A stretch of 39,842 bases of DNA from Deltaproteobacteria bacterium (GTDB lineage Bacteria > Desulfobacterota > Desulfarculia > Desulfarculales > Desulfarculaceae), in assembly GCA_020444205.1 (NCBI GenBank), contig JAHLLJ010000022.1, positions 1 to 39,842 on the forward strand, read 5' to 3'. The notes below the pieces were generated by a model, which ran no database searches, was not told the DNA's origin, and saw only the letters and a program-made list of their open reading frames with translations. Positions 13,273 through 28,189 of this stretch are shown one piece after another. The position numbers and the translations under genes are program-made. Within the stretch, counting starts at the first letter, position 1. Each line of letters starts with the position of its first letter.

Positions 13273-14541
13273 ATGGCTCTCTATTTGAAAGAAGCTAAGG
13301 AAAAGCCCGTCGAAGACCTTACCGCGGTGCGCGAAACCGTGCGCTCCATCATTGACAAGGTCCGCGTCGAGGGCGAGGCGGGAGTACGTTACTACTCCGA
13401 AAAGTTCGATAGCTGGGCTCCCGAGAGCTTCAAGATTTCTCAGGACGAGATCGCCGCGGCCAAGAGCAAACTACCCGCCAGCATGATCGAGGACATCGAG
13501 TTCTGCCAGAACCAGATCCGCGACTTCGCCGGCGAGCAGATGAAGCGCCTGGTGGACTTCGAGGTTGAAACTATCCCCGGGGTGCACCTGGGCCAGAAGA
13601 TCATCCCCGTAGCCTCCAACGGCTCCTACGTGCCCGGCGGCCGCTATCCCATGCTGGCCTCGGCCCACATGACCGTGATCACCCCCAAGGTGGCTGGGGT
13701 AAAGCGGGTGGTGGCTTGCTCGCCCCCGGTCAAGGGTGAGGGCATGTACCCGGCCACCCTGTACTCCATGGCCGCCGGCGGAGCCGACGAGATCTACTGC
13801 ATGGGCGGGGTGCACGCCCTGGCCGCCCTGGTCTACGGCATGGAGGGCCTTGAGCCGGTGGACATGATCGTGGGCGCGGGCAACAAGTTCGTGGCCGAGG
13901 CCAAGCGCCAGCTCTTCGGCGACGTGGGCATCGACCTGCTGGCCGGCCCCACTGAGATATTGGTAATCGCCGACGACGAGGCCGATCCGGTCGTCGTGGC
14001 CGCCGACATCCTGGGCCAGGCGGAGCACGACCCCAACGCCCGCCAGAGCCTGGTGGCGCTGTCCAAGGGCTTTGCCGAGAAGGTGATGGCCGAGTTGGAC
14101 AAGCAGCTCGCCGTGCTGCCCACCAAGGACGTGGCCGAGGTGGCCTGGCGCGACAACGGCGAGGTGGTGGTGGTGGACAGCCGCGAGGAGGCGGTTGCCT
14201 ACAGCGACAAGTGGGCTCCGGAGCACCTGGAGGTGCAGACCGCGGACTGGCGCTACTATCTGGACAACTGCACCAACTACGGTTCGCTGTTCTGCGGCGA
14301 GGAAACCACCGTGGCCTACGGCGACAAGACCATCGGCACCAACCACGTCCTACCGACCATGGGCGCGGCCCGCTACACCGGCGGCCTGTCCGTGGGTAAG
14401 TTCGTCAAGACCGTCACCTACCAGTACGCCGACCGGGCAGGCTCCCACCGGATCGCCGAGGTATGCGAGCGGGCTTGTAATTACGAGAACATGCTGGCCC
14501 ATGGCCTGAGCTGCAAGGTGCGGGTGAATAAATACGCCTGA
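13273..14541 (+). CDS. Histidinol-dehydrogenase-family NAD-dependent dehydrogenase, HpsN (sulfopropanediol dehydrogenase)-like
   Basis: Predicted zinc- and NAD-dependent enzyme that oxidises a terminal alcohol in two steps to a carboxylate. The 422 residues carry all the HisD catalytic and metal positions: Q249 and H252 (GQAEHDP), E317-H318 (APEHLE), D351, H358 (NHVLPT) and H410 (LAHG). No other histidine gene is nearby. The gene instead leads a transporter/hydrolase operon under a divergent LysR gene, which points to a catabolic paralogue such as HpsN, which oxidises 2,3-dihydroxypropane-1-sulfonate to sulfolactate. No sulfolactate lyase (SuyAB) is present in the window, so the actual substrate may be a different polyol or sulfonate. 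AAGGAG precedes the ATG. Confidence 0.82.
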   Translation: MALYLKEAKEKPVEDLTAVRETVRSIIDKVRVEGEAGVRYYSEKFDSWAPESFKISQDEIAAAKSKLPASMIEDIEFCQNQIRDFAGEQMKRLVDFEVETIPGVHLGQKIIPVASNGSYVPGGRYPMLASAHMTVITPKVAGVKRVVACSPPVKGEGMYPATLYSMAAGGADEIYCMGGVHALAALVYGMEGLEPVDMIVGAGNKFVAEAKRQLFGDVGIDLLAGPTEILVIADDEADPVVVAADILGQAEHDPNARQSLVALSKGFAEKVMAELDKQLAVLPTKDVAEVAWRDNGEVVVVDSREEAVAYSDKWAPEHLEVQTADWRYYLDNCTNYGSLFCGEETTVAYGDKTIGTNHVLPTMGAARYTGGLSVGKFVKTVTYQYADRAGSHRIAEVCERACNYENMLAHGLSCKVRVNKYA

Positions 14542-14614
14542 GTTAAATAATTAATTTGGGGTAATTTTGAGAAGTTTAGGCTTTGCCGTGCACACTCAAC
14601 TGAGGAGGATGGGG

Positions 14615-15598
14615 ATGAACTCTCTGAGGAAACTGCTAACCACAACCATGGCGGCCATATTCGTTCTGGTCACCTTTGCGGGCGGTACCGCCCAGGCGGA
14701 ATACCCTGAAAAACCGGTCAAGGTCATCGTGCCTTATGCCGCGGGCGGCTTCACCGACTCCACGGTCAGGGTGATCCAGAAAGGCCTGACCAAAACCCTT
14801 CCCCAGCCGATGGTGGTCATCAATGTGCCCGGAGGCGGCGCGGTCATCGGTGCCCGCCAGGCCAAGGACCTCCCGGCCGACGGCTACAACCTGCTGGTGC
14901 ACATCGTGGCCCTCATCACCACTCGGGTGATGGGCGTTTCCGACTTTGGGACCGAGGCCTTTGAGCCCATTGCCCAAACCGGGACCAACGACATGATGAT
15001 CTGCGTGGCCAAGAAATCACCCTACAAGACCCTCGATGATTTGGTGGCCGCGGCCAAGGCCAAGCCAAAGACCTTGCGCGAAGCCGTGAACATCGGCGCC
15101 ATCGTACACTTCCTGTCCTTGATGTTCTGCGACGCGGCCGGCGACATGCAGGTGCGTTACGTCCAGACCGGCGGCGGCGCCAAGCGCCTGGCCTCCATCC
15201 TGGGCGGGCACGCGGATTATTGCATTCTGGGCACCACCGAGGCCAAGGCCACTTACGAATCCGGCGACATCCGGGTGCTGGCCGTGCTGGCCGACAAGCG
15301 CAGCCGCTTCTATCCCGACGTGCCCACTGCCAAGGAACTCGGCTACGGCGCGCCCTATTTCGGTATGGACCTGTGGTGGTTCGCGCCCAAGGGCACCCCG
15401 CTTGATCGCATCAAGGTCATGGAGACCGCCCTGGCCAAGGCCGTGGAGATACCCGAGGTCAGCGATAGCCTGCAGGCCCGAGCCATGGAGGTCGCCTACA
15501 TGGACCGCGCGCAGCTCACTCAAAAACTCGCCAACATCAAGCAAATGGTGGAGGCCCTGGCCAAGAAGAAGAACATTTCTTTGAAAAAGAAAAAGTAA
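14615..15598 (+). CDS. TTT-family solute-binding protein (TctC/Bug type)
   Basis: Periplasmic binding protein of 327 residues for a tripartite tricarboxylate transporter. It has a signal peptide (basic NSLRK, hydrophobic core, cleavage after AQA near residue 27). The mature start, EYPEKPVKVIVPYAAGG, is followed by GGGAVIGA and AKDLPADGYNLLV, the standard Bug motifs for carboxylate binding. I chose this ATG because GGAGG lies 6 nt upstream; earlier in-frame starts place the ribosome site inside the coding sequence. Bug proteins bind diverse carboxylates, aromatic acids and other small anions, so the ligand is not determined. The two membrane subunits follow. Confidence 0.92.
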   Translation: MNSLRKLLTTTMAAIFVLVTFAGGTAQAEYPEKPVKVIVPYAAGGFTDSTVRVIQKGLTKTLPQPMVVINVPGGGAVIGARQAKDLPADGYNLLVHIVALITTRVMGVSDFGTEAFEPIAQTGTNDMMICVAKKSPYKTLDDLVAAAKAKPKTLREAVNIGAIVHFLSLMFCDAAGDMQVRYVQTGGGAKRLASILGGHADYCILGTTEAKATYESGDIRVLAVLADKRSRFYPDVPTAKELGYGAPYFGMDLWWFAPKGTPLDRIKVMETALAKAVEIPEVSDSLQARAMEVAYMDRAQLTQKLANIKQMVEALAKKKNISLKKKK

Positions 15599-15607
15599 GT
15601 CAGAGCG

Positions 15608-15637: not shown

Positions 15638-15659
15638 TCACCAATTGGGAGCTTGATCA

Positions 15660-16175
15660 ATGGATGTGACCAAACATCGCTTGATTGCCGACACGGTCCT
15701 GGCTTGCGGCTTGCTTTTGATAAGCGGCCTGGCCTACTGGGGCACCCTGGAACTGCCCGATCCCATATTCGACCCGCTAGGCGCGGCGTTCGTTCCCAAG
15801 GTGCTGGCCTATTGCCTGGCCTTTGCCTCGGTAATCCTTTTAATAAAGACTTTCTATGGGGCCGTCAAATTTTCCGGCGCCAAACAAAACCAGGCAGCCG
15901 GAACCAGCGAGGAGGCCGTCTCCGGCCAAGAGCAGCCCAGACAAAGGAACTGGCTGGCCTTCGCTTCGGTGCTGTTGACCATCGCCTACATCGCGGTGAT
16001 GTATTGCCAGCTCTGCGGCTACCGTACGGCGACCATCATTTTCCTGATCGCCTTCGGCACCATGCTCGCGGGCCTCAAGCCCAAGATGATCGCCATCAAC
16101 CTGGTCATCGCCCTGATCTTGGGATTCGGACTTTATTGGATTTTCACCGAGGTACTGGTGGTCAACCTACCCTGA
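15660..16175 (+). CDS. TTT-family small membrane subunit (TctB-like)
   Basis: A 171-residue membrane protein with about four hydrophobic segments: two near the N-terminus (about 10-26 and 43-65) and two in the C-terminal half (about 100-120 and 125-165). A charged cytoplasmic loop rich in E, Q and R separates the pairs. Length and topology are those of TctB, the poorly conserved small subunit of TTT transporters. Identification rests mainly on its place between the binding protein and the large permease. The ribosome binding site is weak (GGGAG, 10 nt upstream). Confidence 0.85.
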   Translation: MDVTKHRLIADTVLACGLLLISGLAYWGTLELPDPIFDPLGAAFVPKVLAYCLAFASVILLIKTFYGAVKFSGAKQNQAAGTSEEAVSGQEQPRQRNWLAFASVLLTIAYIAVMYCQLCGYRTATIIFLIAFGTMLAGLKPKMIAINLVIALILGFGLYWIFTEVLVVNLP

Positions 16176-16257: not shown

Positions 16258-17748
16258 ATGCTCGCACAGGCACTCTTAGACACACTAGCACCGCTGCCAA
16301 TATTCTACATTTTCATCGGCGTTGCTTTGGGATGCATCGTGGGGGCGATTCCCGGTCTTACCGGTTCCATGCTCATAGTATTGACCCTGCCTCTTACCTT
16401 TTACATGGACTCAACCCTGGCCATGATCCTGCTGGTGGCCATGTACGTGGGCTCCATCTCCGGCGGCCTGATCACCGCGACCCTGCTCAGGATGCCGGGC
16501 ACGCCGTCTTCGATCATGACCACCCTGGACGGCTATCCCATGGCCCAGCAGGGCAAGGCCGGCCGGGCCCTGGGCATCGGCATCATGGCCTCCTTTGTGG
16601 GCGGCATAGTGGCCTGGATCTTCATGGTCCTGGTGGCGCCCCCCCTGGGCAAGATCGCGGTCAAGTTCGGACCCTTTGAGTACTTCTCCATGGTGGTCAT
16701 GGCCCTGGTGCTCATAGCCTCGGTGAGCGAAGGCTCTTTCCTCAAGGGCATCATCTCCGGCCTGTTGGGCCTGCTGGTGGCCACCCCGGGCATTGATCCC
16801 GGCACCGCGGTGCCCCGTCTGGACTTCGGCTTCAACGAGATGGCCGGCGGCTTCCACATCCTGCCGGTGCTGATCGGCTTGTTCGGCATCAGCCAGATCA
16901 TCACCGACATCGTCAACATCGATCAGAAGCCCGAAAAAGTGCCCATGAAGTTCTCCAACCTGTTCATGTCCCTCCGGGATTTGAAGAAGCAGGCGGTCAA
17001 CCTGATCCGCTCCTCGGTGATCGGCACCTGGGTGGGCATCCTGCCGGGCATTGGGGCCAACATCGGCTCCATCATCGCCTATGGCGCGGCCAAGAACATG
17101 TCCAAGACCCCGGAGAAGTTCGGCACCGGCCACGACGAGGGCGTCGTGGCCTCCGAGGCGGCCAACAATGCCACCGTCTCCGGCGCGCTGATTCCGCTGA
17201 TCACCCTGGGCATCCCGGGCAGCATCATCGACGCTATCCTGCTGGGGGCCATGTACATCCACAACGTGCAACCCGGCCCCCTGCTGTTCAAGACCAACCC
17301 CGAAATGGCCTACGGGGTGATGTCCTCGGCCCTGGTCGCCAATATATTCATGCTCTTCATCATGGTGGGGGCTACCTTCTTCATCGCCAAGATCGTGGAC
17401 ATTCACAAGGCCTACATCATTCCCGCCATCATTGTGTTTTGCATCATCGGCTCCTTTGCCCTGCACAACCGCATGTTCGATGTGTGGGTGATGTTCGGTT
17501 TCGGCCTGCTGGGCTTCGGGCTAGAGCGCTGCAAGGTACCCCTGGCCCCCTTCATCATCGGGCTCATTCTTTGCCCCCTGGCCGAGCTGCCCATACGGCA
17601 GGGGCTCATGGCCACCGGCGGCAGTCTGGCCCCGCTGGTGACCCGGCCGGCTTCGCTGATTTTCCTGATCATCTCCGCCCTCACCTTTGTGTGGACGATT
17701 TACCAGGAGGTCAGAAAGGCCAACAAGAGCAAGTCAGCAAAGGTTTAA
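16258..17748 (+). CDS. TTT-family large permease subunit (TctA-like)
   Basis: A 496-residue integral membrane protein with 11-12 hydrophobic segments. It has the canonical TctA motifs: GAIPGLTGSM near residue 29, YVGSISGGLITATLLRMPGTP near 63-83, and LDGYPMAQQGKAGRALGIG near 91-109. A second GILPGIGANIGSIIAYG segment near residue 260 reflects the internal duplication of the family. It is the translocation subunit for the substrate delivered by the adjacent binding protein, with uptake driven by an ion gradient. The next gene, a sulfatase-fold hydrolase, starts 44 nt later, so they are probably co-transcribed. Confidence 0.94.
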   Translation: MLAQALLDTLAPLPIFYIFIGVALGCIVGAIPGLTGSMLIVLTLPLTFYMDSTLAMILLVAMYVGSISGGLITATLLRMPGTPSSIMTTLDGYPMAQQGKAGRALGIGIMASFVGGIVAWIFMVLVAPPLGKIAVKFGPFEYFSMVVMALVLIASVSEGSFLKGIISGLLGLLVATPGIDPGTAVPRLDFGFNEMAGGFHILPVLIGLFGISQIITDIVNIDQKPEKVPMKFSNLFMSLRDLKKQAVNLIRSSVIGTWVGILPGIGANIGSIIAYGAAKNMSKTPEKFGTGHDEGVVASEAANNATVSGALIPLITLGIPGSIIDAILLGAMYIHNVQPGPLLFKTNPEMAYGVMSSALVANIFMLFIMVGATFFIAKIVDIHKAYIIPAIIVFCIIGSFALHNRMFDVWVMFGFGLLGFGLERCKVPLAPFIIGLILCPLAELPIRQGLMATGGSLAPLVTRPASLIFLIISALTFVWTIYQEVRKANKSKSAKV

Positions 17749-17792
17749 TCCTTCGCACAAATGATACACCAACGAATAAGGAGAATAGGTAA

Positions 17793-19175
17793 ATGCGCAA
17801 CGTGATATTGATATTCATCGATAGCTTGCGTAAGGATCACGTGGGGGCTTACGGGAACGACTGGATCCAGACGCCCAACCTGGATGCGTTCAGCAAGAAG
17901 AGCTTGAACTTCTCCCAGGCCTACCCCGAGTCCCTGGCCACCATTCCCATCCGTCGCTCCACCATGACCGGCAAGCGCTCCTATCCCTTCCGGGACTGGA
18001 AACCCTCTCTGGGCGACTTCATCTCCGCCCCCGGCTGGCAACCCCTGAGCGACAACGACATTCCGCTCTCGGAGATCCTGTTCGAGGCCAACTACCGCAC
18101 CGCGTTGCTCACCGACGTCTATCACCTGTTCAAGCCCTCCATGAACTACCACCGAGGGTTCTGCGAGTTCCGCTTCATTCGCGGGCAAGAGCTGGACCTG
18201 ATGGACTCCTCCCGTCCCCAGCTGGACCTGGACCACTACCTCACCCCCAAGATGCGCGGCCTGGTTTCCGAGTATCAGACCCGCCAGTACCTGACCAACG
18301 TGCGGCACCGCAAGGGCGAGCAGGATCACTTTTCTCCCATGGTCTTCCAGGAGGCCATCGATTGGCTGGAGCGCAACCAGGACGCCGAAAGCTTTTACAT
18401 GCACGTGGACAGCTTCGACCCGCATGAGCCCTGGGACCCGCCCAAGAAGTACTGGAGCCTCTACGACGACCCCAACTACTCCGGCCGCGAGATCATCTGC
18501 CCTGACTACGGCGACCCCCTTAGCTTCATGAGCCAGGAGGAGCTCAACCACGTCCGCGCCATGTACGCCGGCGAGGTCACCATGGTGGACCACTGGTTCG
18601 GCAAGTTCATCGCCAAGATCGAGGAACTGGGCCTGGACAAGGACACCATGATCATCATGATCTCCGACCACGGCCATCCCCTGGGCGAGCACAACATCAT
18701 CCGCAAGAACCCCTCGGCCATGTACCCCGAGCAGCTGGATATCCCGCTGATGATCCGCCATCCCGAGGGCAAGGGCGCGGGCCAGAGCGTGGACGGCTAC
18801 GTGTACAACCACGACGTGTTCAAGACCATCATCAACTTCACCGGTGCGGAGATTAATTACGATGTGCCCTCTCAGGACCTGATGAACATGGAGCGCGGCC
18901 GCGATTACGCCACCTGCGCCTTCAAGGGCATCACCTGGTCCAAGACCGATGATTACGCCTTCTTCTGCCAGATGGACGGTTCCGATCCCCACTTGTTCGA
19001 CATCAAAGAGGACCCCGGCCAGTTCAACAACATCGCCGCCGACCGTCCTCAAGTTGTCAAAGAGATGTTCGAGCTGATCAAACAGGATGCCAACGGCCCC
19101 CTTCCCGACTTCTCCTCCCTCCAAGGGCAGTTGACCGCACCCCGCTTCAGCACCGCGCTGAGCATCGCTAAATAA
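17793..19175 (+). CDS. Sulfatase-fold (alkaline phosphatase superfamily) hydrolase with Thr at the formylglycine position
   Basis: A 460-residue hydrolase with the sulfatase layout: an N-terminal metal-binding IDSLRKDH (D10), GAYGNDWIQTPNLD near residue 18, and a C-terminal metal motif SDHGHPLGEH near residue 290, then PLMIRHPEG. The signature C-x-P-x-R-x4-T-G is present as T50-I-P-I-R54 with T59-G60. The Cys (or Ser) that would be matured to formylglycine is Thr. That makes a phosphodiesterase- or NPP-like Thr nucleophile more likely than a classical sulfatase. There is no signal peptide, so it acts in the cytoplasm on imported material. AAGGAG precedes the ATG. Confidence 0.85.
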   Translation: MRNVILIFIDSLRKDHVGAYGNDWIQTPNLDAFSKKSLNFSQAYPESLATIPIRRSTMTGKRSYPFRDWKPSLGDFISAPGWQPLSDNDIPLSEILFEANYRTALLTDVYHLFKPSMNYHRGFCEFRFIRGQELDLMDSSRPQLDLDHYLTPKMRGLVSEYQTRQYLTNVRHRKGEQDHFSPMVFQEAIDWLERNQDAESFYMHVDSFDPHEPWDPPKKYWSLYDDPNYSGREIICPDYGDPLSFMSQEELNHVRAMYAGEVTMVDHWFGKFIAKIEELGLDKDTMIIMISDHGHPLGEHNIIRKNPSAMYPEQLDIPLMIRHPEGKGAGQSVDGYVYNHDVFKTIINFTGAEINYDVPSQDLMNMERGRDYATCAFKGITWSKTDDYAFFCQMDGSDPHLFDIKEDPGQFNNIAADRPQVVKEMFELIKQDANGPLPDFSSLQGQLTAPRFSTALSIAK

Positions 19176-21185: not shown

Positions 21186-22454
21186 ATGGAAGATATGGAG
21201 CGCAAACAGTCCCTGGCCCCGCTGCTGTGGGCGGAAAACCGGGCCCTCTTGGACCAGCTCTCCGAGGCGGAGAGCGCCTCCCTGGCCAAGTACGTTGACG
21301 AGCAAAACGTGGAGGATGTCCAGGCGGCCATAGGCAGTGACCAAGAGATTGAACAGGTGCTCTTCTGGGATGGCGGCGGCAAGTTCGACGATCCGGCCTG
21401 GCAGGACCTGGTGCCCCTGAACGAGCCCAATCGCGAATTGTGGAATCAGGCCACCGCTCTTTTTCTGGCCAAGCGCAAAGAGGCGGTGGCCTGCCAGCGC
21501 CGCTCGGACCTGACCCTGCTCAGCCAGTTTAACCCCGGCCTCATATTCACCGGTCTGACCGGGGCCCTGCGCTGCGATGAAAGCGGCCGTCCGGACCCGG
21601 ATGGGGCCTGCTTCCAAGGCGTGGAGTTTCGCCTGACCGGCAGCATAGGCGAGCAAGCCAATAGCCTGAGCGTCGTGGGGCGCGAGGCGGGCGGCTGGGA
21701 GGTTATGCTGGGTACGCCTACTTCGCCGGGCATGAGGTTGAACCTGGGCGACGGCTACAGTCAACTACAGGTGGCCCAGCTCTTGGGCCGCGACCTGCCC
21801 AAGAGCGGGCTATCCGGCAGCCTGCGCGGCCTGGACGGCGCACCGGTGGAGTGCGAGCTAAAGGCGGTGCGCAAGAAGGTACGCCAGGGTCTGGACTCGG
21901 GCCTGCCAACCCAAGCCCGGCTCCACCTGGGCCTGGAGGTTTCAAGTGCGGGTGACGCCCTGTCCCAGGCGGAGAACATCGCCCAGACCATTTACAAGCG
22001 GCTGGGCCTGGAGCTGGAGATCGCCAGCCTGGCGCGGCAGTACGGCAACTTCCACCTAGTGCGCAACGAGAACTTCGACTCGTTCATGGAGGCCGGTGAG
22101 GGCTGCCCCGGCGTGGTCTTCCTCACCGCCACTCTGGAGTGCCGCCGTTGCCGCCGGGAGCTGCCCCTATTCAAGCAGATGGCCGCCCGTTATCCGGCCG
22201 TGAAATTCGGCCTGGTGAACATGAATGCCCCTCACGCCAACTTCCACGAGCGGGTTTTTGGCGACATGGCCGGAGGCGATGCCAACCGCTTTGTGCAGAC
22301 TGCGGACGGGGCCACGCCCTTCACCATCGTCTACACGCCGGAGCAAGGCGGCGGCATGGCCTACCGAGGACACATCGCCACTCCCAAGGACCAGCGCCCT
22401 CCATCCTCTCAGGATGTGTTGGCCCTGCTCGACCGGCACCTGCCTACGGCGTGA
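21186..22454 (+). CDS. Two-part protein: unknown N-terminal region plus thioredoxin-fold C-terminus with CRRC motif (copy A)
   Basis: A 422-residue soluble protein. Residues 1-290 are unfamiliar to me; they include a GSDQEIEQVLFWDGGGKFDDP block near 50-70 and a GLIFTGLTGALRCDE block near 118-132. From about residue 305 it looks like a thioredoxin fold: a beta strand (GVVFLTATLE), the redox motif C319-R-R-C322 followed by a helix, and a second strand (KFGLVNMNAPHA) at the place of the thioredoxin beta-3. A cis-Pro-like TPFTIVY follows, then a C-terminal helix. It is adjacent to a close paralogue and to lipoyl-protein and lipoamide-dehydrogenase genes, suggesting a dithiol relay. The ribosome site is weak. 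Confidence 0.75.
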   Translation: MEDMERKQSLAPLLWAENRALLDQLSEAESASLAKYVDEQNVEDVQAAIGSDQEIEQVLFWDGGGKFDDPAWQDLVPLNEPNRELWNQATALFLAKRKEAVACQRRSDLTLLSQFNPGLIFTGLTGALRCDESGRPDPDGACFQGVEFRLTGSIGEQANSLSVVGREAGGWEVMLGTPTSPGMRLNLGDGYSQLQVAQLLGRDLPKSGLSGSLRGLDGAPVECELKAVRKKVRQGLDSGLPTQARLHLGLEVSSAGDALSQAENIAQTIYKRLGLELEIASLARQYGNFHLVRNENFDSFMEAGEGCPGVVFLTATLECRRCRRELPLFKQMAARYPAVKFGLVNMNAPHANFHERVFGDMAGGDANRFVQTADGATPFTIVYTPEQGGGMAYRGHIATPKDQRPPSSQDVLALLDRHLPTA

Positions 22455-22504: not shown

Positions 22505-23782
22505 ATGGGGCCAACGCAAACCACCATCATAGACCCGCGAGACCTGTTTCCCGCCAATCGCGGTCTACCCAACGAGTTCAACCAGCATGAGCGGGAATCC
22601 TTTGAGGCCTACGTGAACCAGGAAAACCTGGCAATGGTCCAGGGGGCAATCGGCTCGGACCAAGACATCGAGGCGATTCTTTTTTGGGATCGCGGCGGCA
22701 AGTTCGATGATCCCGTTTGGAAAGAACTGACCCCCCTGGGCCAGGCCTCCACGGAATTGATGGCGGCGGCTACCGCTTTTTATGCTGACAAGCGCCGCCT
22801 GGCCGTCAGGAACCAGCGCAGGCAAGACCTGTCCCTGGGCAGCGGCTTCAACCGTGACCTGCTTTTCTCCGGCCTGGCCGGAGCGGTGCGCTGCGGCCCG
22901 GATGGTCGGCCCGATGAAACCGGCAGATTTTTACGCGGCGTGGAGCTGCGGCTGGTGGGCAGCGTAGGAGTTCATTACAACAGTATCAGCATAATGCCCC
23001 TGCCGGCGGGCGACGGCTACGCGGTACAACTGGGCACTCCGCCCGAGGATGGCGCGCCGGGCCAGGAGGTTAACACCAGCGATCCTTTCAGCTTGGTGCA
23101 ACTGGCCTACCTGGTGCATAACGATCTACCCCAGGCCGGTTACCAACCCTCCCTGACCCAAAGCGCCGGAGATGCCTCCATCCCACCTCCCTCGGAGGTG
23201 CGCAAGGCGAACCGCCAAGGACGATCCCTGGGGCTGCAAGGCGAGGTTCGGTTGCACGTGCGGGCCGAGGTCGGTTCGGTGGAACAGGCCCTGGCCCTGG
23301 CCGAGGACATGGCCAGAATCATCTACAAGCGCTTCGGCATGGAGATCGAGATCTACAAGATCGGGCGCTCGTTTCCCAACATGTTTTTGCTGCGCAATGA
23401 GCAGTTCGACCAAATGGTCCGCGGCCTGGGGCCCGATGACCGGGGCCTGGTGTTCATGACCTACACCCTGGAGTGCCGCCGCTGCCGCCGCGAGCTGGCG
23501 GGCTTCACCCGGTTGGCGCGCCAGTTCCCCCAGGTTAAGTTCGCCATGATTAACATGAACGCACCCCACGTGAAGTTTCAGAAGAGGGTGTTCGGCGACG
23601 CGGTGGGTGGCGACCCCAACCAATTCGCCCGCTCCACCACGGCCACCACGCCATTCTCCTTCATCTACAAGTGGGAAACGGATCGGGGTCTATCCTACCA
23701 AGGCTACGTGGCCACGGCCAAGGACGAGCCCCCGCCTTCCTTGGAGATGCTGATGGCCAAAATCAGAGAGTTTATTTTTTAG
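22505..23782 (+). CDS. Two-part protein: unknown N-terminal region plus thioredoxin-fold C-terminus with CRRC motif (copy B)
   Basis: A 425-residue paralogue of the preceding gene along its whole length. It keeps the N-terminal IGSDQDIEAILFWDRGGKFDDP block, the central FNRDLLFSGLAGAVRC block, and the C-terminal LECRRCRREL redox motif near residue 322 followed by KFAMINMNAPH. I start it at the ATG after the intergenic gap; a longer open frame running back into copy A is an overlap artefact. The two copies likely form a heterodimer or act on two related substrates. Conservation of the C-x-x-C in both argues that redox chemistry is needed. The N-terminal region matches no domain I know. Confidence 0.75.
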   Translation: MGPTQTTIIDPRDLFPANRGLPNEFNQHERESFEAYVNQENLAMVQGAIGSDQDIEAILFWDRGGKFDDPVWKELTPLGQASTELMAAATAFYADKRRLAVRNQRRQDLSLGSGFNRDLLFSGLAGAVRCGPDGRPDETGRFLRGVELRLVGSVGVHYNSISIMPLPAGDGYAVQLGTPPEDGAPGQEVNTSDPFSLVQLAYLVHNDLPQAGYQPSLTQSAGDASIPPPSEVRKANRQGRSLGLQGEVRLHVRAEVGSVEQALALAEDMARIIYKRFGMEIEIYKIGRSFPNMFLLRNEQFDQMVRGLGPDDRGLVFMTYTLECRRCRRELAGFTRLARQFPQVKFAMINMNAPHVKFQKRVFGDAVGGDPNQFARSTTATTPFSFIYKWETDRGLSYQGYVATAKDEPPPSLEMLMAKIREFIF

Positions 23783-23823: not shown

Positions 23824-24228
23824 ATGGGCGACGGGTCCGACTTAGCGGAAATCAAATTCGACGACATGGTTCTCTACAGCCGGGAGCACGCCTGGGCCCG
23901 CCAAGAGGACGGGCTGTTTACCGTGGGCATCAGCGATTTTGCCCAAAGCCAGCTCGGCGGGGTCATCTACCTGGAGCTGCCCCAAGAGGACGACGAATTT
24001 GAAGCGGGCGAGGAGTTCGGGGTGGTGGAGTCCTCCAAAGTGGCCAGCAGCCTGTTCGCCCCGGTCGGTGGTCGGGTGGTGGTGGTCAACTGGGAACTGG
24101 AGGATAACCCCGGCATGGTCAATGAAGACCCTTACGGCGCCGGCTGGATAATCAAAATCCAGCCCAAGGGCCAGCCGGACCTGAGCCGCCTCCTGGACGC
24201 GGCGGCCTATAGCGCCTTCGTGGTTTGA
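23824..24228 (+). CDS. GcvH-like lipoyl carrier protein
   Basis: A 134-residue single-domain protein of the glycine-cleavage H family: YSREHAWAR near residue 18, GISDFAQSQLGGVIYLELP near 35-53, then the lipoylation site in VVESSKVAS with the modified lysine at K72, and NEDPYGAGWIIKI near the end. No glycine decarboxylase (GcvP) or aminomethyltransferase (GcvT) gene is present; instead it lies between two CxxC proteins and a dihydrolipoamide dehydrogenase. A lipoyl arm carrying electrons or an intermediate between these proteins is the natural inference, comparable to the dedicated lipoate-binding proteins (LbpA) of the sHdr sulfur-oxidation system. GGGAG lies upstream of the chosen ATG. Confidence 0.88.
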   Translation: MGDGSDLAEIKFDDMVLYSREHAWARQEDGLFTVGISDFAQSQLGGVIYLELPQEDDEFEAGEEFGVVESSKVASSLFAPVGGRVVVVNWELEDNPGMVNEDPYGAGWIIKIQPKGQPDLSRLLDAAAYSAFVV

Positions 24229-24295: not shown

Positions 24296-25681
24296 TTGAG
24301 CGAAAACTACGATATGGCCGTGATCGGTGGTGGGCCCGGCGGATATGCCGCCGCGGTGTTGGCCTCCCGCCAAGGCCTTAAAACCGCCTTGGTAGAGCGG
24401 GAATCCCTGGGAGGGGTCTGTGCCAACTGGGGATGCGTGCCCACCAAGGCCCTGTTGCGCAACGCCGAGGTGATCCACCTGCTTTCCCAGGGCCGCACCT
24501 TCGGTTTCCAGACCCAGGGCTTCAGCGCCGACTACCAGGCAGCCCAGAAAAGGAGCCGCCAGGTTTCCATCCGCCAGGTGCGCCGGGTGGAGGCTCTGGT
24601 CAAGAGCTGCGGCATCGCCCTCCACCGGGGCGAGGGGGTACTGGCCGGGGGGCGCGAAATTCTACTCCAACCGGAGGGCAAGCGCATAAGCGCGGAGCAC
24701 GTGGTGTTGGCCACCGGGGCCCGCCCCCGCCAGCTTCCGGGCCTGCCCTGCGACGGCGAGCGAGTTATCAGCTTCCGCCAGGCCCTGCAACTGACCGAGG
24801 CCCCGGCCAAGGTGGTGGTGATCGGCGCGGGCCCTATCGGCATGGAGTTCGCCACCCTCTGGGCCCGCTATGGCAGCCAGGTCACGGTGGTGGAGATGCT
24901 CCCCCGCATCCTGCCCTTGGAGGACGCGGAGATCAGCGCCGAGGCGGCCAAGGCCTATCAGCGGGTCAAGATCAGGCTGATGACCAGCGCGGCGGTGCAT
25001 GATATCGCGCCCTCCGGACAGGGCGTGACGGTGGAGGTGGAGCAAGGGAAGGGCAGGGAGCGCCTGGCCGCGGACAAGGTACTGGTGGCCATCGGCTTCG
25101 AGGCCAACAGCGGCGGCCTGGGCCTGGAAGAGGCGGGCGTGGCCCTGGAGCGCGGCCGGGTGGTGGTGGACGGCCAGATGCGCACCACCCAGTCTCACGT
25201 CTTCGCCGTGGGTGATGTGACCGGCAAGCTGGGCCTGGCCCACACCGCCTCTGCCCAGGCCTTCGTGGCGGTACAGACCATCGCCGGGCGACCCACCCGG
25301 CCCCTGGTCTACACGGACATCCCCCGCTGCACTTACACCTCTCCGGAGATTGCTTCGGTCGGCCTGACCCAGGTGCAGGCCGAGGACCGCGGCCATGCCG
25401 TGACTGCGGTAACCAGCCCCCTGGCCCCCAACGGCAAGGCGGTGGCCATGAATGAGGCGGTGGGCCTGGTAAAGATAGTGGCCGACGCCAACAGCCATCA
25501 GGTGCTGGGGGTGCACATGATGGGCCCCCACGTAACCGAGATGATCGCCGGGGCGGCCGGAGCCCTGAGCCAGGGCCTCACCGTGGGGCAAATGGCCTCG
25601 GTGGTGTATCCCCACCCCACGGTGAGCGAGGCGCTCATGGAAGGGCTGCACGCCCTGGCCGGCCACGCGGTGCACATCTGA
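24296..25681 (+). CDS. Dihydrolipoamide dehydrogenase (Lpd-type flavoprotein disulfide reductase)
   Basis: A 461-residue FAD enzyme of the pyridine-nucleotide disulfide reductase family. It has an N-terminal GGGPGGYAAA FAD motif (11-20), the redox pair C42-A-N-W-G-C47 followed by VPTKAL, an NAD-binding GAGPIGMEFA near residue 178, a second FAD motif with FAVGDVTG near 302, and the C-terminal active-site H440-P-T-V-S-E445. These residues mark lipoamide dehydrogenases rather than mercuric or glutathione reductases. Translation probably starts at a TTG, 6 nt after GGAGAGAG. It presumably re-oxidises the adjacent lipoyl protein with NAD+, or reduces it with NADH. Confidence 0.92.
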   Translation: MSENYDMAVIGGGPGGYAAAVLASRQGLKTALVERESLGGVCANWGCVPTKALLRNAEVIHLLSQGRTFGFQTQGFSADYQAAQKRSRQVSIRQVRRVEALVKSCGIALHRGEGVLAGGREILLQPEGKRISAEHVVLATGARPRQLPGLPCDGERVISFRQALQLTEAPAKVVVIGAGPIGMEFATLWARYGSQVTVVEMLPRILPLEDAEISAEAAKAYQRVKIRLMTSAAVHDIAPSGQGVTVEVEQGKGRERLAADKVLVAIGFEANSGGLGLEEAGVALERGRVVVDGQMRTTQSHVFAVGDVTGKLGLAHTASAQAFVAVQTIAGRPTRPLVYTDIPRCTYTSPEIASVGLTQVQAEDRGHAVTAVTSPLAPNGKAVAMNEAVGLVKIVADANSHQVLGVHMMGPHVTEMIAGAAGALSQGLTVGQMASVVYPHPTVSEALMEGLHALAGHAVHI

Positions 25682-25711
25682 AGGGCCCAGCCAGAGGCTA
25701 GAGGGCACCGC

Positions 25712-26818
25712 ATGGCATTCGCCAATCTGCACATGCACAGTTTCTGGTCTGACGGCCTGCTCCCGGCGGGCGAGGTCCTGCGGCTCGCCAGCCAGAAGCC
25801 CGGCTTGGAGCTGATTGCTCTCACCGACCACGATACCTTGTCGGGCTTGGAGCCCCTTTTCCGGGGTTGGCGGGCGCGGCAAGATCTGAGGTTGCCAACA
25901 CCTCAGGTGGCGGCTGGCATCGAGCTTTCCCTGTGGGAGCCGGTCTTGGAGGCTGCGGTGCATCTCCTGGGCTATTTTTCCTGGTTAAAACCCGAGGACC
26001 CCTCCCCAAGCCTGGCTCGGTTGGAGGCTGACCTGGGAGCCCATTGTCGCAAGATGACCCAAAAGCGGGGCGAACGCGACCTTGACGCCCGAGTGGCCAA
26101 GGCCCATGCCTTGAACCTGGACGGCCTGGCCCGGATCTTCCCTACGCCCGAGGCGGCGGTGGCTGCCTTCCGCTTCGCCAGCGCCGACCGGTTGCGAGAC
26201 ACCGTGCGTGTGGAGCCCAAGGATGGCGACGTTTGTCAGGGGCCGCCGCCGGCCACCTACCAGGACATGATCGAGGCTTGGAGCGGCCTGGTGCCCGGCA
26301 CCAGCCGGGAACGCGTCACCCTTTACACCCTGCGCCCGGATTCCTCGCGCGTGGCCCGTCTGGCCGCCATTTTGGCGGAGGAGGACGGTCTGCCTGTCGC
26401 TCAGGCCCGGGAGCTGGCCCTGGAGCTGCAAGGCTGCCTGGTAAAGGACCTGGGCGCGCCAAGCTTCCTGCCCGGCCCCCTGGAGGGCCTAGCCATGCTC
26501 CAGCGGGCGGGCGCGGTCACGGTGCTGGCCCACCCCGGGGTGGACTTCCCCAGGATGAGCCTGGCCGATTTTGACCAACAGGTGCTGGAACCCATGGCGC
26601 GCGCCGGCCTGCGGGGGGTGGAGGTCTTCTATCCCTATGATCCCGGTCACCGGACCAAGCTCCAGCAACACTACTACGCGCAGGCCCGGCGCCATGGTCT
26701 GCTGATCTCTGGCGGCACCGACTTTCACGGCGACGGGCGGGCCGGCCTGGGCGAGACTCCGCTTTCTTTGGAAGACGCCCGGCGCATAGTTTCGCCCGGC
26801 TTGGTTGTATCAAATTGA
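25712..26818 (+). CDS. PHP-domain metal-dependent phosphoesterase
   Basis: A 368-residue protein with a split PHP domain. The N-terminal half shows NLHMHSFWSDG (H7, H9, D14) and ALTDHDTLSG (D39, H40, D41). The C-terminal half shows TVLAHPGVDF near 270 and SGGTDFHGD near 340. These are the trinuclear metal ligands of YciV-like phosphatases, which hydrolyse nucleotides or small phosphate esters. The insertion of about 150 residues between the halves is longer than usual and has no motif I recognise. It starts 30 nt after the dehydrogenase gene and ends 12 nt before the glycosyltransferase gene, so it may be the phosphatase for that enzyme's product. That role is inference. Confidence 0.85.
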   Translation: MAFANLHMHSFWSDGLLPAGEVLRLASQKPGLELIALTDHDTLSGLEPLFRGWRARQDLRLPTPQVAAGIELSLWEPVLEAAVHLLGYFSWLKPEDPSPSLARLEADLGAHCRKMTQKRGERDLDARVAKAHALNLDGLARIFPTPEAAVAAFRFASADRLRDTVRVEPKDGDVCQGPPPATYQDMIEAWSGLVPGTSRERVTLYTLRPDSSRVARLAAILAEEDGLPVAQARELALELQGCLVKDLGAPSFLPGPLEGLAMLQRAGAVTVLAHPGVDFPRMSLADFDQQVLEPMARAGLRGVEVFYPYDPGHRTKLQQHYYAQARRHGLLISGGTDFHGDGRAGLGETPLSLEDARRIVSPGLVVSN

Positions 26819-26830
26819 CAGGAGAGGCCC

Positions 26831-28189
26831 ATGTCTGACTTCAGTCAGCTCTCCACCAAGGTTTGCACCTTCCACTGCTTGGAGCAGGATGCGCGAGGGG
26901 TGCGCGCCCAGCTCACGGCCCACGCGGTAGGCAAGTCGCCCATGCTGATCATGCCCTGCTTGGCCAGCGAGTTCACCGACCCGGCCAACCGCCCGGTGCT
27001 CACCAACATCCTCTCCGAGTTGGCGGGCGTCGATTACCTGAAAAGGGTGATCATCGGCCTTGACCAGGCGGGCCAACCGGAGCGCGACCTGCTGGGTGAG
27101 TTGGTGCGCCAGGCCGGCCTGGCCAATTGCACCATACTCTGGAACGACTGTCCTGCCTGCCAAGCGGTCTACGGGCAACTGGAGCAGGCCGGAGTGGCCC
27201 TGCAGCGCCCGGGCAAGGGCAAGAACATGTTCCTGGCCTTTGGCTTGGCCTTGGCCCTGGAGGCCGGCGTGGTGGGGGTGGTGGACGCGGACATCAAGAC
27301 TTTCACCGCCGAGCAGGTGGACCGGTTGTTCTTCCCCTTGGTAGTGTTGGACTATGAGTTCAGCAAGGCCTTCTACGCCCGGGTGCACCAAAACCGCCTC
27401 TACGGAAGAGTGAAGCGCCTTTTGTTGGATCCCTTGCTCTTGGCCCTAAAGAAAAAGTTCTCCTACTCGCATGAGGAAAAATTCATGCGCCTGGTTGACT
27501 ACCTACTCTCCTTCCGCTACCAACTCTCGGGCGAGGTGGCCTTTCGGGCCGACCTGCTGCGGCGCATGCGCTTTGCCATGAACTGGGGGGTGGAGATATA
27601 CACCCTTATCGAAGCCTACCGCAAAAGCTCGGCCATTTGTCAGGTGGAACTTTCCCCCGCGCCCTTTGACCATAAGCATCAGGCACTAACCCCCTCCTGC
27701 GGCAAGGGCGGATTATCGGCCATGGCCTTGGACATCATCACCACCCTCATGAACTGCCTCATCGTGGAGGAGGGGCTGGAGCTGGGGCCGACCTTCTTCC
27801 CGGACCTGGCGGTGACCTATCAGTCCATCGCTGAGCGGCAGATAAAAAAGTACGCCCACGAGGCTGCCTTCAATTGCCTGCAATATGATCGCGGGGCCGA
27901 AGAAAAGGCTCTGCACGAGGTTTTCCGACCGTCCCTTTTGGCCGCCGGCGAAGAACTGCAAAGCCCGGTTCGCTTGGCCGAGCGCTTCCTCATGTTGGTC
28001 AACTCTAATGATAAGTTTCGGCCCTACGTGCAAGGAGGCCTGAATCAAGTGATCTGCGAGGTGGCTGCCCGCGGCCAGGGAAGTGTGTACGAGGTCCCTC
28101 AAACGCCCTCTTGGGAGCGTGCCCTAGACAAGAACAACGAGATATTTGCCAGCTTGCGAAGCTTAGCTTCTTCCGGCCCTGGTGCGTAA
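26831..28189 (+). CDS. GT81-like glycosyltransferase (glucosyl-3-phosphoglycerate / mannosylglycerate synthase type)
   Basis: A 452-residue soluble GT-A fold transferase. Visible are a RPGKGKNM nucleotide-sugar segment (about 126-133), the metal-binding DADI motif (152-155) in VVDADIKTFT, and an acceptor-site stretch SKAFYARV followed by LYGRVKRLLLDPLL, which I associate with the GT81 family. Those enzymes make glucosyl-3-phosphoglycerate or related glycosylated three-carbon acids that are then dephosphorylated. The adjoining PHP phosphoesterase gene fits that second step. At 452 residues it is longer than typical GpgS, with an extra C-terminal helical region. The exact donor and acceptor are not determined. 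GGAGAGG precedes the ATG. The last gene of the long plus-strand run. Confidence 0.78.
   Translation: MSDFSQLSTKVCTFHCLEQDARGVRAQLTAHAVGKSPMLIMPCLASEFTDPANRPVLTNILSELAGVDYLKRVIIGLDQAGQPERDLLGELVRQAGLANCTILWNDCPACQAVYGQLEQAGVALQRPGKGKNMFLAFGLALALEAGVVGVVDADIKTFTAEQVDRLFFPLVVLDYEFSKAFYARVHQNRLYGRVKRLLLDPLLLALKKKFSYSHEEKFMRLVDYLLSFRYQLSGEVAFRADLLRRMRFAMNWGVEIYTLIEAYRKSSAICQVELSPAPFDHKHQALTPSCGKGGLSAMALDIITTLMNCLIVEEGLELGPTFFPDLAVTYQSIAERQIKKYAHEAAFNCLQYDRGAEEKALHEVFRPSLLAAGEELQSPVRLAERFLMLVNSNDKFRPYVQGGLNQVICEVAARGQGSVYEVPQTPSWERALDKNNEIFASLRSLASSGPGA

Follow-up and report, generated by a model that had tools for sequence, protein, structure and literature searches.

Sulfatase-fold enzymes with threonine at the nucleophile position (Thr-type enzymes) travel with exchangeable dithiol relays in most but not all of the cases seen, as gene context shows in the DNA described here and in other genomes. 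One such enzyme belongs to a small recurring set of genes, and we tentatively propose that this core is a thiol-dependent desulfation module in which imported organosulfates would be cleaved reductively to sulfite, a reading that we consider quite possible but short of probable. The window, by which we mean the whole stretch of 39,842 nucleotides analyzed here, is an entire contig (C136) of a MAG with a completeness of 82.5%.

Organization of the gene cluster

Thirteen plus-strand ORFs, all undamaged, lie across positions 13273-28189, and 10 of the 12 intergenic gaps are shorter than 70 bp, the exceptions being gaps of 82 bp between the TctB and TctA genes and of 270 bp between the gene for the sulfatase-fold enzyme SulfA and that for a 138-aa protein. 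A LysR-type regulator gene (12024-12938, minus strand; PF03466, E 4.9e-30; PF00126, E 3e-17) is divergent from this operon, with promoter-like sites arranged back-to-back at 13038-13096, and LysR homologues (40-46%) adjoin the core in L013, L014, and L017, three of the six other loci discussed below. An earlier note on this DNA had described the same arrangement of 13 genes with mostly short gaps and a divergent LysR gene; the gene for the 138-aa protein, the thirteenth, is missing from its title. Its statement that the cluster fits no known pathway also stands, in that searches returned no known system corresponding to the entire cluster. Beyond the cluster, on the plus strand, are a decayed second copy of the dehydrogenase (HDH) gene with internal deletions (28827-29285), in which separated HDH pieces match (31-79% over 19-65 aa), and a similarly decayed duplicate of the beginning of a SulfA-type gene (29402-29686; 54% identity to SulfA over 89 aa).

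Thr-type sulfatase-fold enzymes

SulfA (17793-19175, plus strand; PF00884, E 5e-39) and SulfB (19873-21174, plus strand; PF00884, E 6e-35), the latter forming part of the module core, are 41% identical. The motif at the CxPxR site is ATIPIR in SulfA and PTVPTR in SulfB; the two Thr-type hydrolases claimed earlier are indeed PF00884-fold proteins with Thr at the nucleophile position. When aligned to solved sulfatases, both show the PF00884 fold with a putative metal and anion site. Residues T49, R53, D9, D281, H282, H200, and K294 of SulfB are invariant in an alignment of nine diverse rows; we take D9, D281, and H282 to be the metal Asp and Asp-His, and R53, H200, and K294 to form the anion site. 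SulfB counterparts (51-75% identical) are present in all six of the other CxxC loci, and relatives of SulfA are found in L012 and L015 (partly masked in L015), and also in L074, L092, and L095.

The formylglycine (type I, S1) sulfatases resemble SulfA and SulfB in fold, in the putative metal Asp and Asp-His, and in the anion-site Arg, His, and Lys. They differ, however, in having Cys or Ser in place of Thr, while the module adds dithiol partners, and no signal peptide is apparent by eye in SulfA or SulfB. Formylglycine is made from Cys or Ser at the nucleophile site, according to portions of two papers (PMC6189696, PMC3920027), whereas the first position of the C/S-X-P-X-R motif is Thr in SulfA, SulfB, and nine of nine aligned rows. 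Thr is also found in the surveyed Thr-type/Sulf rows, including L158, which gave no scripted motif match and for which Thr was judged by eye. Nevertheless, a Cys-type choline sulfatase that is unmodified retains slow turnover, as an excerpt of one of these papers states (PMC6189696), and the absence of formylglycine is therefore no bar to hydrolysis.

Dithiol, lipoyl, and Cys-tail proteins

The 138-aa protein (19446-19862, plus strand) is a candidate carrier with an invariant Cys in a disordered N-terminal tail (EVxETAACGI). This Cys, the only invariant one in the protein, is present in 6/6 sequences, and the tail is the most conserved stretch of the protein (9/10 residues invariant). The structural model has a mean pLDDT of 86.1, with residues 1-10 below 50, and the protein has no Pfam match at cut-off, no NCBIfam match, and no PDB fold match at E <= 0.001. 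CxxC proteins 1 (21186-22454, plus strand) and 2 (22505-23782, plus strand) are paralogues (46% identical) of the same architecture, seen in the family alignment, in which an N-terminal region of unassigned family precedes a thioredoxin-like CRRC domain. In the model of CxxC protein 2 (pLDDT 80.6), the C-terminal domain has a thioredoxin fold (Foldseek; best match 1r26, E 1.4e-4), and the N-terminal region has no separate fold match among the 50 Foldseek matches listed, all of which are thioredoxin-like. The CRRC pair provides the only Cys residues invariant among eight CxxC-protein sequences.

The GcvH-like lipoyl protein (23824-24228, plus strand; PF01597, E 1.4e-37), which has the lipoyl-Lys motif ESSK, passes the GcvH equivalog cut-off (TIGR00527, 124.5 bits; cut-off 115.85), whereas five homologues score below it (104-115 bits). 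It is one of nine GCV_H matches in its own genome, some of them at contig ends, and it lacks Cys, while the five homologues share one Cys at a later site; a second, near the N-terminus, is seen only in L012 and L013, in extensions with unsure start codons. Dihydrolipoyl dehydrogenase (Lpd; 24296-25681, plus strand; TIGR01350, 493.7 bits; cut-off 408.8) has an intact redox Cys pair (GVCANWGC), and no redox Cys or lipoyl-Lys motif is disrupted in any of the 5 TrxR, 5 Trx, 6 GcvH, and 2 Lpd proteins checked. No GcvT or GcvP family match, as would be expected of a glycine cleavage system, is found among the 13 genes.

A recurring core with variable passengers

Six CxxC loci outside the window were found with a CxxC query and fetched as stretches of 14.7-21.3 kb. 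Including the window, SulfB is present in 7/7 loci, the CRRC protein in 7/7 (being the query), and the small protein and the GcvH-like protein in 6/7 each; outside the window, the corresponding counts in the fetched stretches are 6/6 for SulfB and 5/6 for both the small protein and the GcvH-like gene. L015 holds SulfA (partly masked), the small protein, SulfB, and the GcvH-like and CxxC genes, and L012 combines a TTT (tripartite tricarboxylate-type) importer with SulfB, CxxC, and SulfA. In L013 and L014, the GcvH-like and CxxC genes are accompanied by those for a cytochrome and a CCG protein of HdrD/TmcB type, and L013 additionally encodes a lipoate ligase in which LplA and LplB-like regions are seen.

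The genes for HDH, the importer, Lpd, the PHP protein, and the glycosyltransferase are variable passengers from which the core is separable. HDH (13273-14541, plus strand) is an alcohol-to-acid enzyme of the histidinol-dehydrogenase family that is nearer to HpsN (8v35, sulfopropanediol dehydrogenase, E 1.8e-123) than to HisD (6e-75); a separate 35% match on C40 is probably HisD, and a paralogue with 90% identity lies on C44 in a different-looking cluster in which no sulfatase-fold gene was matched. The TTT importer consists of the substrate-binding protein TctC (14609-15598; PF03401, E 1.2e-37), the small membrane subunit TctB (15660-16175; PF07331, E 3.5e-14), and the large membrane subunit TctA (16258-17748; PF01970, E 9e-152), all on the plus strand, with TctC and TctA homologues in L012. 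The PHP-domain protein (25712-26818, plus strand) matches PF02811 below cut-off and NCBIfam PHP families far below theirs (NF041577, E 3.4e-18, 65.8 bits; cut-off 400), and among the six other loci has a homologue only in L017. The GpgS-like glycosyltransferase (26831-28189, plus strand; NF040724, E 7.2e-60, 203 bits; cut-off 700) is a paralogue of a widespread family gene, being 62% identical to the copy in the D. sandiegensis cluster and 49-53% to most other long matches. Its relatives occur in 19 of the 40 genomes examined, and the glycosylation of a three-carbon acid suggested in the earlier note is therefore not indicated.

HDH and an adjacent Lpd gene are each present in 0/6 fetched stretches of the other CxxC loci, the TTT importer in 1/6, and the PHP and glycosyltransferase pair in 1/6, which lends no support to one obligate 15-kb pathway. 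The grouping of Thr-type enzymes with dithiol and lipoyl proteins, on the other hand, recurs in the six other CxxC loci and is seen phylum-wide with different dithiol partners. The neighborhood search seeded with the CxxC proteins that the earlier note had called for finds the left and right halves of the cluster together in L012 and L015, contrary to the outcome that the note had named as its refutation.

Thr-type genes and dithiol partners across genomes

We surveyed 54 sulfatase-fold rows in eight genomes for a Trx, TrxR, CxxC, GcvH, or CCG partner within 3 kb. Such a partner is found beside 10/15 close Thr-type genes and 2/39 others (Fisher p 7e-6), in a survey whose partner profiles were built partly from the partners of Thr-type genes, whose genomes were picked for holding such genes, and whose 3-kb limit was fixed after a first look. 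When the window is left out, the counts are 8/13 and 2/39 (p 6e-5), and for rows flanked by a full 3 kb on either side they are 10/14 and 0/26 (p 1e-6). With a laxer threshold and all ORFs of at least 45 aa, 4/39 of the others match (2/26 with full flanks), through TrxR/Lpd-like FAD proteins only and no Trx. Within the 3-kb limit, five of the 15 close Thr-type genes are without a partner, and none is present in the 18-kb stretch around a sixteenth, outside the tally, in G053 (L075, 564 bits), or beside the remoter Thr-type genes L073 and L076. The relay can be exchanged while the Thr enzyme stays: it is CxxC, GcvH, and Lpd in the window, CxxC, GcvH, CCG, and cytochrome in L013 and L014, and Trx with TrxR in L071, L072, L093, L094, L096, and L097. 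Dithiol systems, which differ in type from locus to locus, are the most frequent neighbors seen in the Thr subclades.

Of the 13 genomes with either the core or a close Thr-type gene, 10 have a DsrA match above cut-off, as does G006; in the MAG to which the window belongs (82.5% complete), no DsrA was found. It is also lacking in G089 and G125, whose three close Thr-type genes are all without a relay partner. A parallel locus in the window's own genome (C250) and in the sister genome G006 combines a TRAP importer, GcvH, a glutaredoxin-like protein, and Lpd with an arylsulfate sulfotransferase (ASST)-family gene in place of the sulfatase fold. ASST transfers sulfuryl groups without PAPS, using a His nucleophile on a beta-propeller as opposed to the alkaline-phosphatase fold of SulfA and SulfB. 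The next homologue (41%) of the C250 glutaredoxin-like protein, however, adjoins what appears by eye to be a glycine-cleavage gene set in G007, and the C250 parallel may thus concern glycine cleavage and not desulfation. Elsewhere in the same genome, Hdr-like ORFs (recognized by eye) precede a lipoyl H-like gene piece on C331, and a PAPS-reductase/CysD-family gene lies in another cluster on C187.

A possible mechanism

In the proposed desulfation, an organosulfate (R-O-SO3-) would be brought in, in the window probably by the TTT importer, and the conserved Thr of cytoplasmic SulfA or SulfB would accept its sulfuryl group. The sulfatase routes tabulated in one review, as far as its table goes, release sulfate (PMC5573963). 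Because SulfA and SulfB lack formylglycine, by which ordinary sulfatases release sulfate with water, the sulfuryl group may be handed instead to a thiol, the candidates being the small protein's invariant tail Cys and the CRRC pair of the thioredoxin-fold protein. A second thiol would then attack the S-sulfo group, releasing sulfite and leaving a disulfide, which the dithiol relay would re-reduce: in the window, lipoyl-GcvH supplied by Lpd and NADH; in L013 and L014, an HdrD-like protein and cytochrome; and in the sister clade, thioredoxin with thioredoxin reductase. The sulfite could then feed dissimilatory sulfite reduction with no need to spend ATP on activating sulfate, and the freed alcohol would be converted to an acid by HDH. 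The nature of the transferred group as sulfuryl, the thiol acceptor, the sulfite product, the direction of electron flow, the cytoplasmic location, and the substrate are all inferred.

The invariance of T49 together with the putative metal and anion residues, the tail Cys of the small protein, the ASST parallel locus, and DsrA in 10/13 hosts are consistent with this proposal. Against it, the window GcvH scores as canonical, other GcvH genes are present in the genome, DsrA was not found in the MAG, and reduction of an unactivated sulfate ester by a dithiol (potential near -0.29 V in a section of PMC6067878) may be uphill. Thioredoxin-dependent PAPS/APS reductases offer a likeness, in that a thiol takes the sulfuryl group and sulfite leaves, but they have an unrelated fold (PF01507, matched by 0/13 cluster proteins), and the donor here would be an organosulfate and not an activated nucleotide sulfate. 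Sulfonate lyases of the IslA type also yield sulfite for respiration, according to part of one paper (PMC8473560). Theirs is a glycyl-radical C-S cleavage of sulfonates, as opposed to the dithiol-dependent S-O cleavage of esters proposed here.

Alternative explanations

SulfA and SulfB may instead be Thr-type phosphodiesterases, phosphonate monoesterases, or slow hydrolytic sulfatases, the relay reducing a disulfide, sulfoxide, or other substrate group elsewhere in the pathway; we regard this as a real possibility, if an unlikely one. Members of the superfamily other than sulfatases typically have a Thr nucleophile, as many phosphodiesterases and phosphotransferases do, and the NCBIfam matches, all below cut-off, are spread over arylsulfatase, choline sulfatase, PehA phosphoric/sulfuric ester hydrolase, and phosphoethanolamine transferase families. 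Moreover, phosphonate monoester hydrolases (2w8s, 4upk) are among the relatives of solved structure, the operon also contains a PHP phosphatase-like gene, and 5/15 close Thr-type genes and that of G053 lack a dithiol partner. Hydrolysis, however, needs no reductant, yet changing dithiol systems are the commonest companions of the Thr subclades; no common substrate-specific reductase is recognized among the neighbors, and an arylsulfotransferase-family gene takes the same place in the parallel locus. It is also conceivable, but very doubtful, that two or three unrelated operons have come to lie side by side by chance, a reading to which the 270-bp gap, the varying HDH, TTT, Lpd, PHP, and glycosyltransferase genes, and the rearrangement evident from the decayed HDH and SulfA copies all point. 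SulfA is nonetheless joined with SulfB and CxxC in L012 and L015, in L012 with TTT genes as well; the survey contrast (10/15 against 2/39) bears on the core and not on the passengers.

Sulfur carriage as by LbpA of the sHdr system and catabolism of DHPS are both weaker readings than thiol-dependent desulfation. In the former, which seems improbable, an organosulfur compound would be desulfurated and its sulfane sulfur or thiol carried on lipoate and oxidized by Hdr-like/CCG or CxxC proteins, with Lpd re-oxidizing dihydrolipoate to give NADH. The likeness lies in a GcvH-like lipoyl protein outside carbon metabolism, paired in L013 and L014 with the HdrD/TmcB-type CCG protein and cytochrome, and in L013 with lipoate ligase; the C331 ORFs fit as well, and a dihydrolipoamide dehydrogenase gene is linked to the hdr cluster in sulfur-oxidizing archaea, as part of one paper reports (PMC6067878). 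The same partial source describes two Cys strictly conserved in LbpA (some archaea excepted) and absent from GcvH, however, and the window protein has no Cys. The core here is of the sulfatase fold; family scans of selected neighbors recognized no linked sHdr set (HdrCBA, dsrE, or tusA) beside it, only the CCG/TmcB-like genes of L013 and L014, and this reading would leave the sister clade's Trx/TrxR partners unexplained. The other reading, in which an imported ester or sulfonate is hydrolyzed and oxidized by HpsN to sulfolactate or an analogue, lipoyl proteins handling the sulfur intermediate, is one to which we give little credence. Its main point is that HDH clearly resembles HpsN more than HisD, and TTT systems are known for small acids and sulfonates; but HDH is a passenger found in none of the six other stretches, its 90% paralogue sits in a cluster without a matched sulfatase-fold gene, and no sulfonate or sulfolactate lyase was recognized among the window genes scanned.

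Implications

A broader claim, which we put forward as possible though on the unlikely side, is that reductive, dithiol-dependent sulfatases constitute a new enzyme class and energy strategy, in which a Thr-type enzyme, or an arylsulfotransferase-family protein in the parallel loci, would pass the sulfuryl group of an imported organosulfate to a thiol on a protein, from which sulfite would be freed by a relay of the Trx, Grx, or lipoyl kind. The gene module, carried here by an anaerobic bacterium, is previously undescribed, and it suggests that some bacteria desulfate organic compounds by reduction to sulfite and not by cleavage with water. If this is true, anaerobes would be able to respire organic sulfate esters without an outlay of ATP on sulfate activation.

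Cluster, host genome and core module

Sulfatase-fold genes with threonine at the formylglycine position (Thr-type) form a recurring module with a dithiol relay, that is, with nearby genes for thioredoxin (Trx), thioredoxin reductase (TrxR), lipoyl GcvH, dihydrolipoyl dehydrogenase (Lpd), HdrD-like CCG, CxxC or glutaredoxin (Grx) proteins. One version is found in the cluster at 13273-28189 (+). All 13 of its ORFs are intact and 10 of the 12 gaps between them are shorter than 70 bp, the other two being 82 and 270 bp, which confirms the thirteen-gene cluster that an earlier note had placed behind a divergent LysR gene; overlapping promoter-like sites lie between that gene and the cluster. Family scans also returned the gene families guessed in the note, which include an HpsN-like dehydrogenase (HDH), a TctC/TctB/TctA (TTT) importer, two Thr-type proteins (SulfA and SulfB), two CxxC proteins, a GcvH-like lipoyl protein, Lpd, a PHP-domain protein (PHP) and a GpgS-like glycosyltransferase (GT). 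The gene list in its title was correct in these families but left one gene unnamed; located between SulfA and SulfB (19446-19862), it encodes a 138-aa protein that is a member of the core. The host MAG, of which the window is contig C136, comprises 4.44 Mb in 342 contigs (completeness 82.5%, contamination 5.3%), and Dethiosulfatarculus sandiegensis belongs to the same family.

Elsewhere in the window, the reverse strand at 872-11094 carries genes for members of the ATC-hydrolase (PF14196, E 5e-35), M20 peptidase, M24 and SDH_alpha (cysteine-desulfidase-like) families and for an FAD flavoprotein, along with TAXI-type and fused TRAP genes (by eye), a set that looks like one for uptake and breakdown of its presumed substrate, a thiazoline or cysteine derivative. 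The stretch 28827-29686 contains a decayed HDH copy and a decayed SulfA-type start, after which come genes for a TRAP transporter and an Fe-ADH, and a transposase-like ORF fragment at 34329-34709 (-), judged by eye, adjoins an aminotransferase/C-S-lyase-like gene at 34725-35933. The plasmid DNA search brought up hisD genes and nothing else (71-75%, covering no more than 5% of the query).

Scanning an alignment of the CxxC protein against the contigs of 84,980 species located at least six loci outside the window (L012-L017), a lower bound given that two short peptide patterns were used; the hosts are recorded as deltaproteobacterial, Desulfatiglandales or D. sandiegensis. The CxxC proteins of these loci are 37-40% identical to CxxC2 of the window, which gave no match when used as sole query against the same contig collection. 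Five weak CxxC-profile matches in other genomes (E 2.6e-5 to 2.9e-4) span only some 45-55 residues in the thioredoxin region and were left out as not full-length. Among 60 genomes, comprising the host and its relatives, CxxC proteins occur only in the host (G000) and in G008. SulfB is present at all six other loci (51-75% identical to that of the window), the small protein at five (absent from L012), and a GcvH-like gene at five (absent from L016), the L012 copy lying about 9.5 kb away on the opposite strand. LysR is found at 3/6, SulfA at 2/6 (L012 and, partly masked, L015), TTT genes at 1/6 (L012), and PHP with GT at 1/6 (L017). HDH and the adjacent Lpd occur at none of the six, the edge of L015 having a distant, partial FAD-protein match.

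The neighborhood search thus bears out the co-occurrence of the left and right halves of the cluster elsewhere, SulfA being found with SulfB and CxxC, and TTT with SulfB and CxxC. The claim of a single 15-kb pathway is nevertheless too wide, and HDH, Lpd, PHP and GT are passengers. Glycosylation of a product by GT, also put forward in the note, is not upheld: relatives of GT are present in 19 of 40 genomes, and in eight GT loci besides that of G008, of 12 returned, the 1.5 kb or so around GT contain no PHP homologue. We found no published description of the core module, and met none of dithiol-dependent desulfation, in those parts of the open-licence literature that were covered, which leaves absence from print unproven.

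Predicted features of the CxxC protein and the small protein

In the AlphaFold model of the CxxC protein (pLDDT 80.6, eight sequences) the C-terminal region is predicted to adopt a thioredoxin fold with a CRRC motif (1r26, E 1.4e-4), and this pair provides the only invariant cysteines in the eight sequences. For the first ~290 residues, neither Pfam (E ≤ 1) nor NCBIfam (0.01) gave a matching family. The model of the small protein (pLDDT 86, six sequences) is confident except for residues 1-10, which are its most conserved part, with 9/10 positions invariant versus 25/137 overall (hypergeometric 5e-7, descriptive only). Its tail cysteine is the sole cysteine invariant in all six sequences, and a conserved cysteine on a floppy arm would fit a role as carrier. 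A search of 394 other genomes gave no relative of the protein, and none of the PDB folds matched it at E ≤ 0.001.

Active site of the Thr-type enzymes

SulfA and SulfB can be aligned with S1 sulfatases, and residues D9, T49, R53, H200, D281, H282 and K294 are invariant in an alignment of nine diverse relatives. Judged from sequence, the active site of the Thr-type enzymes looks preserved, apart from the threonine at the formylglycine position. In a 1998 study, cited in PMC4591525, sulfated enzyme was reportedly trapped by substituting formylglycine. Passages in two papers state that the formylglycine precursor must be Cys or Ser (PMC6189696, PMC3920027). According to a passage in one of them, unmodified Cys choline sulfatase turns over slowly (PMC6189696), and the argument from the missing formylglycine is therefore suggestive rather than strict. 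A tree of 37 selected rows, which is only a sketch given the quick method and a long-branch warning, sorts most of the close Thr rows into a CxxC-SulfB, a Trx-type and a SulfA-type group, the L012 SulfB falling outside the first. In G053 (L075 8348-11176), a 942-aa open frame ends in a sulfatase-fold domain of the close Thr-type, and the surrounding 18 kb contain no dithiol partner.

Dithiol partners near Thr-type and other sulfatase-fold genes

A profile built from nine Thr-type proteins (A8) was searched in 395 genomes of the phylum, giving matches at E ≤ 1e-60 in 13 places in eight of them, with a gap in score (492 vs 298 bits). The survey genomes (G000, G008, G089, G125, G133, G140, G344 and G415) were picked for having Thr-type genes; they are seven of the eight genomes matching A8 plus G008, G148 being omitted as its match is distant. 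They contain 54 PF00884 rows, and flanks were taken for all 54, none being dropped before the count. Neighbors within 3 kb were scored with profiles for Trx, TrxR, GcvH, Lpd, CCG, CxxC and Grx. Fifteen rows scoring at least 441 bits were classed as close Thr-type and the remaining 39 as other, the latter including gene fragments, 13 rows whose flank on one side is shorter than 3 kb, and L073, a Thr-bearing gene whose score falls short of the close clade.

A dithiol partner lies within 3 kb of 10 of the 15 close Thr-type genes versus 2 of the 39 others (Fisher p 7e-6; 6e-5 when the two rows from the window are left out), in a survey whose rows are non-independent, G344 and G415 being of the same genus, and whose partner profiles were built partly from the Thr-type genes' own partners. 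Among genes with full flanks, the counts are 10/14 versus 0/26. The two partners of other rows are an Lpd-like ORF (L134) and the TrxR of a neighboring Thr-type operon (L093), and a laxer threshold applied to all ORFs gives 4/39, all FAD proteins with no Trx, the added cases (L140 and L159) being weakly TrxR-like; the arylsulfotransferase adjoining L158 was excluded from the count. A Pfam scan took in 117 ORFs lying no more than 2 kb from 31 of these 39 rows; it omitted ORFs above 700 aa or with N runs, and its longest-ORF choice can hide short genes. Among the 25 listed of its 179 families, a list that includes only some of those with a single member, Trx, Grx, GCV_H and CCG are absent and Pyr_redox_2 has two members. 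Outside the tally, G053 contributes a sixteenth close Thr-type gene, G031 a more distant Thr-type gene and G036 a Cys-type gene, each lacking a partner. The full-flank control offsets the contrary results from G053, from G007 (discussed below) and from the N-terminal cysteine of L012 and L013, and leaves our estimate unchanged. D. sandiegensis, which is cultured, has four close Thr-type loci with a dithiol partner at each. We consider that the Thr-type enzymes and dithiol relays are probably functionally coupled.

Exchangeable relays and parallel loci

The identity of the relay varies. A Thr-type gene is found with Trx and TrxR at L071 (after TRAP genes), L072, L093, L094, L096 and L097; CxxC is found with GcvH in the window and most core loci; L074 combines a SulfA-type gene with GlcD-like and CCG genes; and at L091 GcvH and Lpd lie about 3 kb and 6 kb, respectively, from the Thr-type gene. 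Genes for a cytochrome c/NarI-like fusion and a CCG protein border the lipoyl gene at L013 and L014, and L013 also has a lipoate ligase. Where checked, the relay proteins have their catalytic Cys pairs and lipoyl-Lys motifs intact. In D. sandiegensis (L072 8725-14565) the Thr-type gene, Trx and TrxR precede a BCCT transporter and an MttB-family protein. Because BCCT carriers take up quaternary amines, this locus suggests choline sulfate, or a related quaternary amine ester, as one substrate type. A small protein of ~90-100 aa recurs near Thr-type genes (L071 2001-2306, L091 14789-15052 and, its kinship judged by eye, L093 6593-6871), and the L071 copy has no Pfam match. An ORF of ~1050 aa starts divergently beside the sulfatase-fold operon at L071 and L091.

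Two further loci of the host genome resemble the window cluster. Contig C250 (L032 4522-8780) carries a row of genes for a TRAP importer, an arylsulfotransferase-family protein, GcvH, a C-terminally extended glutaredoxin-like protein and Lpd, and the row is conserved in the sister species G006 (L054 7287-11542). In G007 (L055 4143-9017), however, a 41% homologue of this glutaredoxin-like protein is next to GcvT-, GcvH- and GcvP-like ORFs (by eye), a glycine-cleavage-like context that counts against over-reading the C250 parallel. Contig C187 (L158) encodes TTT and MFS genes, a PAPS-reductase/CysD-family protein (below cut-offs), a sulfatase-fold protein whose nucleophile is Thr as judged by eye, and an arylsulfotransferase-family protein. 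The arylsulfotransferase-family proteins have no PDB match. In all three host loci, then, an importer and a possible sulfuryl-transfer enzyme occur together with a dithiol relay or, alternatively, with a PAPS-reductase-family protein. In addition, lipoyl H-like proteins with an ESGK motif occur near CCG/Hdr-like iron-sulfur genes at L029 (C56) and L030 (C331), both by eye, and at L013 and L014, with cytochrome genes also near some of them; these loci possibly represent a separate, general lipoyl electron-transfer module.

Proposed chemistry and alternatives

Hydrolysis of a phosphate or sulfate ester needs no reductant. We propose sulfuryl transfer to a thiol because it is the simplest chemistry needing both the Thr enzyme and the relay. 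The sulfuryl group would pass from the ester to the Thr of the sulfatase-fold enzyme and then to a thiol; thiolysis of the S-bound sulfuryl group would yield sulfite and a disulfide, the latter being re-reduced by the dithiol relay, and the released sulfite would enter Dsr. DsrA scores above cut-off in 10 of 13 genomes with the core or a close Thr-type gene, or 11 of 14 when G006 is included. It is absent from G089 (85% complete) and G125 (90%), whose three close Thr-type genes have no partners, and from the window's MAG, where incompleteness may explain the gap; G006, of the same genus, has DsrA.

Among other assignments of the cluster, degradation of DHPS has HDH as its main support, but a 90% identical paralogue lies in what is apparently another catabolic cluster, with TRAP genes (L060 8628-9899, host contig C44), and HDH was rejected as a pathway-specific marker on account of this copy. 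A part for HDH in histidine biosynthesis was also rejected, a separate match on C40 probably being HisD. Glycine cleavage was likewise rejected, GcvT and GcvP being missing among the 13 cluster genes. Nor is the window's lipoyl protein LbpA, as it fails the LbpA Cys test, in which the L012 and L013 homologues give an unsure result. Thermodynamics may tell against reductive desulfation itself, the dihydrolipoamide potential being near -0.29 V according to a passage in PMC6067878. Reductive desulfation as set out here is tentative, and we judge it somewhat more apt to be wrong than right; its widest form, a new class of dithiol-dependent sulfatases, is a little less probable still.

In marine sediments, organosulfates make up an important pool of sulfur. 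Sulfate needs activation by ATP before it can be respired. The sulfatase routes listed in a review of marine sulfur cycling release sulfate (PMC5573963), and a single-cell study puts forward sulfatases as the means by which cells related to Desulfatiglans gain sulfate, one section heading there saying 'Sulfite' (PMC6129605). If the Thr-type enzymes release sulfite, organosulfates would be direct and cheap electron acceptors. Arylsulfatase would then be a misreading for one branch of a very large enzyme superfamily, and desulfation would use lipoyl H-proteins and thioredoxins as its acceptors or reductants. Even with other chemistry, the link between a Thr-type enzyme and an exchangeable dithiol relay is a specific, testable pattern, for which D. 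sandiegensis provides a cultured host.
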